DNA of 64,000 nt from Candidatus Gastranaerophilales bacterium (GTDB lineage: Bacteria > Cyanobacteriota > Vampirovibrionia > Gastranaerophilales > Gastranaerophilaceae). Positions 39,610 to 42,548 of this stretch are shown here, in pieces; the first letter of the stretch is position 1; each line of letters opens with the position of its first letter. The stretch lies in contig CALUSL010000009.1 in assembly GCA_944323425.1 (NCBI GenBank), forward strand, positions 1 to 64,000, given 5' to 3'. A program made the position numbers and the translations under genes. The notes below the pieces were generated by a model, which was not told the DNA's origin, searched no databases, and saw only the letters and a list, made by a program, of their open reading frames with translations.

Positions 39610-41361
39610 ATGGACAGAATTAGAAAGTTTACAAAAAAATACTGCATAAAAGAACTGGCTGTCATATTTTTTATTTCAACAGTGTTATTCTTTATCTTCT
39701 ATGCAAAATATGATGAATACTTAATCGATATAGGAAGAGAAGCATACATACCCTGGCAGATGCTGAAAGGGAAAATTCTATACAAGGATATATTCAATGT
39801 TTACGGACCTCTCGGATATCAGATTAATGCAATTTTATTTTCAATTTTCGGCACAAGTTTGAATACACTGTATCTTGCCGGTTTTTTCAATTCATTAATA
39901 ATTCTTTTCTCCACTTTTTTCATCTCAAAATTATTTGTAAGCAAAAAGACATCTCTTTGCATAACCGGACTCACTATATTTATTTGTGTCTATGCAAAAA
40001 ACTTTTTTGATTTTATATTTGCATACTCTTATAACGCGATATACGCTCTTTCCGGATTTCTTCTATCTGTATTATCAATCCTTTTGTATATAAAAAACAG
40101 AAGCAAAACAGCATTACTAGCAGGTTTTATGTTTGCAGGTTTTGCATTTGCAAACAAAATTGAATATTTTCCATATTTTTGTTTTCTGTTTTTATGCTTG
40201 CCAATTTTTGCAAAGAGAGATTGGAAAAAGTATGTTTTTTCAGTTTTAGCCTTTTTGTGCTTTCCGGTTTTATCCTTCTGTGCGCTATTTTTACAGGGGT
40301 TGGATACCACTGACCTTTATAATGCATATGAACTAATCAAAAAACTTATACATGCTCCATCAACAACATATTTTTACACAACAAACGGGCTGTATTTCAA
40401 CATACAACGCACAAAAGAAGCTTTGTTAATCTTTTGGGAAGTTATGAAGGTAATCATACCATACTCGATATTTTTGTATGTAATAGAATATCTGCGTGAA
40501 AAATACAAAATCAATAACGCCCTGACCGAAATTTTGCTGATTGCCTGCACAATTATACTTATCTCAAAAAACATTAAATCTCTGGTTCTATACAGAGACG
40601 GGCTTTTTTCCTGGTTGGGACTCATAGTTCTGATAATTTTATTGGTTTCTGCAGTGATTTTTGTAAAAAAGCTTGTTTCCGGCAGTATTCTACGCAGGGA
40701 TAAAATGTTTTTGTTCCTTGTAATAAGTACAATATTAGCCTCCTTCAAGGGACTTTTTTCTATTTATACAAATACATACGGAACATTCAATCTTGCCATA
40801 CTATTTGCACCTGCTGTTATATTTTTTATAAAATATCTGCCTGTAAATTATACAAACAAAATTCTTCTGAACAAAACAATAAACCAGCTATGTATAGCCG
40901 CAATGCTGGGATGCTTTGCAGTAACTCTGTACAGAACAGTAAAAACAGAGTTATATGTAATAAAACAGCCGCGTGGAATTATTGCGACAAGAACAATATA
41001 CGGGGAGCAAAATGCACTAATATCATATATAAAAAACAATACACCGAAAAATGCAAAGATTTTGACTGTTCCAGAAGGCGTAACCGTAAATTTTCTTGCA
41101 GAGCGGGACTCTGACAATTTTTATTACTATCTCATGCCGGTAAATGTCGATATTTTCGGGGCTGAAACAATCATAGAAAACTTGAAGAAATCACCGCCTG
41201 ACTATATTTTGCAAAACAATCTGGGATACTCAGCATATAACAAAGGCGGCATTTTTTCATATCTCACAGGATTTTATGAATTTCTGGAGCAAGAATATAC
41301 GCCGGTCCTTCAGCTCAATGCGCCGGTAAGCTTTACCTTATACAAAAAGATATCAGGATAA
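39610..41361 (+). CDS. GT-C fold membrane glycosyltransferase (PMT/ArnT-like)
   Basis: 583 residues with about 11-12 membrane helices over residues 15-440 and a soluble C-terminal domain (about 450-583). The first periplasmic loop has DEYLIDIGREAYIPWQMLKG and DIFNVYGPLGY, the acidic loop typical of dolichyl- or polyprenyl-phosphate-sugar-dependent enzymes. It should transfer a sugar from a lipid carrier at the outer face of the inner membrane. The position beside an acyltransferase and glycan genes fits surface polysaccharide or lipid decoration. Confidence 0.8.
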   Translation: MDRIRKFTKKYCIKELAVIFFISTVLFFIFYAKYDEYLIDIGREAYIPWQMLKGKILYKDIFNVYGPLGYQINAILFSIFGTSLNTLYLAGFFNSLIILFSTFFISKLFVSKKTSLCITGLTIFICVYAKNFFDFIFAYSYNAIYALSGFLLSVLSILLYIKNRSKTALLAGFMFAGFAFANKIEYFPYFCFLFLCLPIFAKRDWKKYVFSVLAFLCFPVLSFCALFLQGLDTTDLYNAYELIKKLIHAPSTTYFYTTNGLYFNIQRTKEALLIFWEVMKVIIPYSIFLYVIEYLREKYKINNALTEILLIACTIILISKNIKSLVLYRDGLFSWLGLIVLIILLVSAVIFVKKLVSGSILRRDKMFLFLVISTILASFKGLFSIYTNTYGTFNLAILFAPAVIFFIKYLPVNYTNKILLNKTINQLCIAAMLGCFAVTLYRTVKTELYVIKQPRGIIATRTIYGEQNALISYIKNNTPKNAKILTVPEGVTVNFLAERDSDNFYYYLMPVNVDIFGAETIIENLKKSPPDYILQNNLGYSAYNKGGIFSYLTGFYEFLEQEYTPVLQLNAPVSFTLYKKISG

Positions 41362-42548
41362 TAAAGCCGGCGGCATGGGCATCCAGGGATTACCCCCCCC
41401 CCCGAAAGCTCGCTCGCAGAGCGGATTTTAGCCTTAAGGGCGTTAAAAGCTTTAACAGCTTTTTGTTCTACAAAGATGTGAGAAAGAACTCCTATTACAA
41501 CACAAATCAATATACTTGCCCATATGTTCCAATACGGATGAGCATATACAAAAGCCTTGTTTGTCCACATAAAATGTTTTTCTATAGCAAAACCGACCTC
41601 TTGCATTATGTATATTGCAAAAGAAAATTTCCCGAGAAAAATAGAAAATTTATTTTCAAGAAGCTTAGACAGCAATCCTTTTTTTGCAAGGAATAACAGA
41701 AATAAACTACTGAAAATAACTATATATATAAAATTATTATGAAAGCTAATTTTATGAAAAATAGTGTTATTAATTAGGAACATAAAAAGATAAATCTCAA
41801 ACGCAGAAATTGCTATAAAAAACAAAGCTGATTTCAACTTATTTTTTATTTGAAAATTCTTCACATATTCTGATATGTTCTCCCACAGCATACCTAAGAA
41901 GTAGCCTAAGCCAAGTCCTGCAAAAGCACGAAAAAATGCACCGGAAAATAAACCAAAAATTTTTCCTTGCGCACCTGTGATTGTTCCATTATTCCACGTT
42001 AAAATTGCTGTATAAGACATAAATAAAAGAATGAACATAATTATATTAAAAACTCTGTGGCTAAATGTTTTATAACTATAATGTAAAAATATAGAAGTCC
42101 AGAATAAAGCGCAAACAAACCACGAAACTCCATTATTCGTCATTTTCCATATTAAAACATTGTGCAAAAACAATAAAGTTAAGACATTTGCATACGAATA
42201 AAAGTCACAAATATGAAATAGCGAAAGCAGACCAGAAAGAATTATAGAAAAAGCGATCAACGGCCAGAATCTGATGATTTTGTTAATTGAAAACTCCAAA
42301 GTGCTGTCTTGTTTATTTTTAAAATGAAAAAATAAAAAGAATCCTGCCATAATGAAAAAATATTCCACACATAAAGATGTGCCAGCGCGTTGCATCCATA
42401 ATTTTACGTACAAAGGAAAGTCTTCGTACAAATGATATATCGGTACACAGTAATAAAGTATATGCGAATATACAATTATTATTGCAAATATAAACCGCAA
42501 AAATTCTATGTTTTTTATCTTTTCCATTTTATTACTTTTTTCCTGCAT
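41310..42548 (-). CDS. Acyltransferase-3 (OafA/OatA-like) with G-tract tail
   Basis: 412 residues from MQEKSNKMEK, with GGGGAGAG before the ATG. Ten helices, starting with NIEFLRFIFAIIIVYSHILY (the acyltransferase-3 His) and including RAGTSLCVEYFFIMAGFFLF. It should O-acetylate a surface sugar. All helices end by about residue 360. The last 40 codons include an 11-G tract followed by VIPGCPCRRLYYPD and overlap the convergent glycosyltransferase gene by 52 bases. With ten G the frame would stop directly after the tract. So the tail here is unlikely to be ancestral. Confidence 0.85.
   Translation of the reverse strand: MQEKSNKMEKIKNIEFLRFIFAIIIVYSHILYYCVPIYHLYEDFPLYVKLWMQRAGTSLCVEYFFIMAGFFLFFHFKNKQDSTLEFSINKIIRFWPLIAFSIILSGLLSLFHICDFYSYANVLTLLFLHNVLIWKMTNNGVSWFVCALFWTSIFLHYSYKTFSHRVFNIIMFILLFMSYTAILTWNNGTITGAQGKIFGLFSGAFFRAFAGLGLGYFLGMLWENISEYVKNFQIKNKLKSALFFIAISAFEIYLFMFLINNTIFHKISFHNNFIYIVIFSSLFLLFLAKKGLLSKLLENKFSIFLGKFSFAIYIMQEVGFAIEKHFMWTNKAFVYAHPYWNIWASILICVVIGVLSHIFVEQKAVKAFNALKAKIRSASELSGGGVIPGCPCRRLYYPDIFLYKVKLTGALS
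41393..41403. repeat. Homopolymer of 11 C (G on the coding strand)
   Basis: Eleven consecutive C in an AT-rich genome, inside the 3' part of the acyltransferase gene. Such tracts are known to slip in replication. In this frame the gene reads on to 41310; minus one base gives a TAA at 41392-41390; plus one base gives a different tail of about 14 codons. Sequencing error is also possible in such tracts. Confidence 0.9.

Follow-up and report, generated by a model that had tools for sequence, protein, structure and literature searches.

A 3' poly-G tract in an acyltransferase gene of Gastranaerophilales as a probable element of C-terminal phase variation

The acyltransferase gene, its G11 tract and three reading frames

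Gastranaerophilales are non-photosynthetic relatives of Cyanobacteria. The window analyzed here, a stretch of 64,000 nucleotides, lies on contig 9 of a Candidatus Gastranaerophilales genome (2.03 Mb, 47 contigs) and includes an acyltransferase gene that runs into a homopolymer of 11 G close to its 3' end. The features at this locus are as follows.

39610..41361, plus strand: convergent membrane-protein gene of 583 aa, with its final 52 bases under the G11 tail
41310..41312, minus strand: TGA reached at 8, 11 or 14 G, giving a 27-residue tail
41310..42548, minus strand: acyltransferase ORF in its assembled G11 form, 412 aa, of which the final 27 codons make up the variable tail
41353..41355, minus strand: TGA reached at 9 or 12 G, giving a 12-residue tail
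41390..41392, minus strand: TAA directly behind the tract, in frame at 10 or 13 G; the congener G003 has TAG there
41393..41403, minus strand: G11 homopolymer (C11 on the plus strand), preceded by TTTC on the minus strand
41404..42548, minus strand: conserved stretch of the AT3 acyltransferase gene (PF01757), lying upstream of the tract

The encoded protein matched PF01757 with E=4e-21 and 75.8 bits against a curated cut-off of 31. The domain spans residues 12-353, and the tract thus lies about 30 residues past it, beginning at codon 382 in the short, 385-aa form. An earlier sequence-only reading had called the enzyme a surface acyltransferase, a term that is loose in that AT3 enzymes sit in the inner membrane. 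The gene stands at the end of a series of minus-strand genes containing LuxC-like, LuxE-like, AMP-binding, KAS III-like, pyruvyl transferase and hexapeptide protein genes, which is compatible with a putative role of the series in making or acylating a surface glycan or lipid. For the convergent gene, DUF6798 was the sole match and was sub-threshold.

Simulation of other tract lengths gave products of 385 aa (G10), 412 aa (G11), 398 aa (G12) and 386 aa (G13), and the three frames (385, 398 and 412 aa) all keep the acyltransferase domain whole, differing in the last residues alone. The sequence-only reading had placed an eleven-G tract at this position with 27 further codons, a 52-base overlap with the convergent gene and an immediate TAA at 10 G. 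Each of these points was reproduced: exactly 11 C stand on the plus strand, the frame and stop coordinates agree, and the overlap follows from the G11 stop at 41310-41312 and the end of the convergent gene at 41361. At 12 G another frame is indeed taken, but it closes 12 residues after the Gly run rather than after about 14 codons.

The C-run might also belong to a transcription terminator or another RNA signal between the convergent genes, and a short CGCTC/GAGCG stem does adjoin it, with the stem of G003 in a different register. However, G003 has no convergent gene there and still keeps the tract. This explanation, which we consider very improbable, was rejected because no terminator-like site was found in the tract region and folding was no better than that of shuffled sequences on either strand (z -0.5 and +0.3).

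The length of the tract is not a matter of chance. Pattern searches of the genome gave 5, 3 and 2 runs of at least 9, 10 and 11 G, where an order-1 model with parameters from the window, extrapolated to genome size, expects 0.82, 0.16 and about 0.03. The distribution has no smooth tail, with 13 runs of exactly 7, none of exactly 8, and then runs of 9, 9, 10, 11 and 11, so that long tracts are in excess. Of these five runs of 9 or more, four fall in surface or surface-modifying genes, namely the acyltransferase, a flagellin-like, an autotransporter-like and an AlgX-like gene (the last assigned through its G003 orthologue), whereas no clear gene surrounds the remaining one, located on contig 3.

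Conservation of the tract and 3' G-runs in related acyltransferases

The G003 orthologue shares 64% protein identity over 377 residues and carries TTTC-G11-TAG at the same codon as TTTC-G11-TAA of the window. Over 60 nt on either side, the nucleotide sequences agree at 83% ahead of the tract and at 35% behind it, and homology breaks off precisely at the tract. In the comparison with homologues suggested by the sequence-only reading, the stop codon behind the tract is kept in G003 and the 27-residue tail is not conserved, the 11-G tails of the two species showing no similarity and being unrelated. A tail acting as a conserved peptide was therefore rejected, and at the level of sequence the conserved feature is the stop directly behind the tract, which would be in use at 10 or 13 G. 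No length variation was seen at this tract, with 11 G in both orthologues (one assembly for each of two species). G103, at 55% the next closest homologue, lacks a tract and comes to a natural end. Between the window gene and its G003 orthologue, 46% of the fourfold-degenerate positions match, and among the Gly codons GGG is used least (12%); the uninterrupted G-run has thus been retained against background drift.

Of 64 related acyltransferase loci, eight have a G-run of at least 8 at the 3' end (counted from 30 nt ahead of the match end to 150 nt past it), six near the start codon and four in the middle. The runs were always G on the coding strand, and no run of at least 8 C was found near these 64 loci. 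Including the window gene, 9 of 19 runs lay within the final 14% of the span scanned (P=0.0006; 0.006 with related pairs merged), and acyltransferases with 3' poly-G occur in several other Gastranaerophilales genera. The eight single-tract cases analyzed gave short tails in all three frames, with ends within about 65 nt. At two loci (L163 and L164) from two genera, a polysaccharide-deacetylase-like gene (MLLTFDDGYY motif, recognized by eye) beside the acyltransferases bears an N-terminal run of G9 or G12.

These data bear on the view that the tract slips but that its position is neutral, a G-run in the last codons costing nothing at any length and being retained or restored through biased slippage or exchange between paralogues instead of selection for tail variants. 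We hold this to be quite possible, if tentatively. The enzyme domain is whole in all frames, no downstream gene is affected in the window, and the tail is antisense to the neighboring gene and unconserved. Furthermore, according to the Oac data cited in PMC9833829, the C-terminus of a stand-alone 10-helix AT3 protein is cytoplasmic. By analogy the tail is probably cytoplasmic as well; it would then not be displayed outside and should not be antigenic, and an unconserved tail in that compartment may be functionally neutral. Against neutrality stand the recurrence of 3' tracts in several genera with over-representation at the gene end, and the consideration that neutral runs should decay, while the two orthologues differ at about half of the fourfold sites yet keep 11 G.

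The 3' G-runs of L222 (3567-3577), L223 and L290 lie directly upstream of another gene. A 3' tract might set translational coupling, one frame stopping on the start codon of the neighbor and permitting re-initiation, the others stopping 30-50 nt short. In L222 (G11) and L290 (G12) the stop of the assembled frame overlaps the start of the next gene (ATG at +50/+51, stops ending at +57/+64), and L223 has the same ...KND* frame available, so that by its sequence context tract length could control such coupling in loci of this type. As a general account, coupling is unlikely: the window has a convergent gene at this point, the nearest co-directional gene of G003 starts 125 nt downstream behind its own promoter-like sequence, and the neighbors in L239, L259 and L162 are convergent or not close.

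Poly-G tracts elsewhere in Gastranaerophilales

Runs of at least 9 numbered from 1 to 82 pattern matches per genome in 22 genomes chosen mostly for already known tracts. TTTC followed by at least 8 G was present in 57 of 146 family genomes drawn evenly, with backward controls near zero. A universal TTTC-Gn DNA motif was nevertheless rejected, as a prefix-free search showed TTGC, TATC, TGTC and AGGT in other genomes. Together with k-mer enrichment that resembled paralogous gene families, this suggests that the TTTC prefix is mostly family inheritance.

In the genus of the window, flagellin genes carry poly-G or poly-C where the conserved N-domain gives way to the variable middle region. Thirteen G003 flagellins have a tract of 8-13 bases at about codon 141-158; six are in frame, including one truncated at a contig end, and seven are out of frame, and one G000 flagellin is out of frame too. 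A full-length tract flagellin matched Flagellin_N, Flagellin_C and GLUG repeats. From its sequence, the family looks like a phase-variable flagellin repertoire. Tract flagellins with long variable middles and the run at about codon 141-180 were recorded at L113, L199-L211 (G003), L214-L216 (G001 and G002) and L218 (the window's own genome).

An AlgX-like gene (SGNH acetyltransferase) carries the tract after about 95 codons in three species (L217:6824-6833, L201:2537-2548 and L212), being out of frame in G000, G003 and G001 with 10, 12 and 13 bases, respectively; the coding strand carries a C-run in the window's genome and a G-run in the other two. In other genera (g7, g8, g11 and g23), dozens of pilin-like genes (N_methyl, DUF6613; L078-L137 and L048-L077) have TTTC-Gn in a short RBS-ATG leader ORF located on either strand relative to the gene. 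The pilin leaders range from G9 to G12 in G060, nearly all in G009 and G010 are exactly one G short of the length fusing leader to pilin, and all 19 tracts in G013 are G11. This uniformity in G009, G010 and G013 could reflect a default OFF state, programmed slippage, homogenized paralogues or calling bias. On contig 11 of G009 (423873-1030378), TTTC-Gn sites are all on the plus strand up to 758 kb and all on the minus strand from 823 kb, as if their orientation followed the two replichores or gene direction.

Homopolymer lengths in assemblies may be off by one base, a margin that also applies to the out-of-frame calls of sister genes, and the true acyltransferase tract might accordingly be 10 or another length, in which case the tail ORF would be absent. 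Such an artefact could account for the pilin leaders of two genera, nearly all of which lack a single base for the fused frame, homopolymers are error-prone, and an N gap lies inside a tract of G076. We nonetheless consider it decidedly unlikely. Eleven G occur at the same place in two separately assembled species; the flagellins of G003 show mixed phases within one assembly, not a uniform undercall, and such a mixture is hard to obtain from a uniform bias; and a length error would leave the tract itself standing. The G076 gap concerns the acyltransferase of Candidatus Gastranaerophilus phascolarctosicola (L140/L223), whose 3' tract is split by NN at about 2569-2589 in L140, suggesting an unresolved length at the G-run.

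With an excess of long runs, a location in surface genes, and copies both in and out of frame, the Gastranaerophilales tracts match, in sequence, the features of a poly-G phasome.

Probable C-terminal phase variation and comparison with known systems

We favor, at a probability of roughly 0.7, the reading of the tract as a slipped-strand contingency element that produces C-terminal phase variation and belongs to a family-wide poly-G phasome. The G-run would gain or lose a base during replication by slipped-strand mispairing. With 10 or 13 G the enzyme would end in ...LSGGG(G)*; other counts would add a tail of 12 or 27 residues whose sequence derives from non-coding or antisense DNA, and the membrane acyltransferase domain would be complete in every phase. 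Similar tracts of the family would switch flagellins, pilin-like proteins and other surface genes. Slippage of this tract in living cells is likely, given its length and the states of the sister genes; a functional effect of the tail on activity, stability or partner binding is much less certain, although the tail might influence stability or a partner in the cytoplasm. The confidence placed in C-terminal phase variation overlaps with that in a neutral tract, because the slippage step is common to both and the role of the tail is what differs.

The proposal of the sequence-only reading that slippage alters the tail and does not switch the whole enzyme remains the best account in view of the congener, the 3' recurrence and the in-frame and out-of-frame sister genes, tempered by the 11 G of both genomes. 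That interpretation is thus partly supported: it was largely right, and the system is broader than the tail of a single gene. A point against it is that MutS1- and MutS2-type proteins are present in all four genus genomes, so slippage is not favored by loss of mismatch repair, which was rejected as its driver.

A literature search found no report of poly-G phase variation in Gastranaerophilales or Melainabacteria, and this set of tracts in surface genes is apparently undescribed so far. If the tracts slip, flagellin, pilin and surface sugars vary at random in these uncultured cyanobacterial relatives from the gut, which matters for recognition by TLR5, escape from phages and the tracking of strains in metagenomes; the interest comes from the family-wide phasome more than from one acyltransferase tail. 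At even odds, this may be one of the largest bacterial poly-G contingency systems, in which a dozen-plus flagellins and dozens of pilin-like genes would be individually switched and acyltransferase ends toggled, the host-facing surface being reshuffled stochastically and the 3' tracts tuning an enzyme tail or a neighboring gene.

Among known enzymes, the protein resembles the AT3 acyltransferases (PF01757) OafB and Oac, a 10-helix membrane family acylating surface sugars, in its domain match over the length, and differs from them in standing alone and in an oligoglycine end encoded by a homopolymer. It is predicted to be a sugar-acylating AT3 acyltransferase, with sugars as the putative substrate class.

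The closest precedent is Helicobacter canadensis, for which the term C-terminal phase variation was coined; reads there showed variable G10-G14 tracts close to the ends of genes (Snyder et al. 2010, PMC2823697), a G11 tract, for example, covering lengths of G8-14 (PMC2823697). Both systems have poly-G of at least 10 near the 3' end with frames that alter a short tail, there in surface-polysaccharide and flagellar genes (PMC2823697). In contrast, the phylum differs, the Gastranaerophilales tract is known here from assemblies and those of H. canadensis from reads, and an AT3 acyltransferase is absent from the H. canadensis genes listed (PMC2823697). The C-terminal class of Neisseria gonorrhoeae, described later, likewise has 3' repeats that switch the C-terminus, some fusing with downstream coding sequence, but its genes are unrelated and the class comprises four loci only (PMC5320596). 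Campylobacter poly-G/C phasomes, as surveyed with PhasomeIt, have long poly-G tracts peaking at 9-10 and 5-81 phase-variable genes per genome (PMC6321876). Both groups share a concentration of such tracts in flagellar and surface-glycan genes. However, flagellin-modifying genes vary in Campylobacter, whereas the flagellin genes themselves carry the tract in Gastranaerophilales; and C stands on the coding strand in only 5% of Campylobacter tracts (PMC6321876), whereas C-strand tracts occur at the same sites in Gastranaerophilales.
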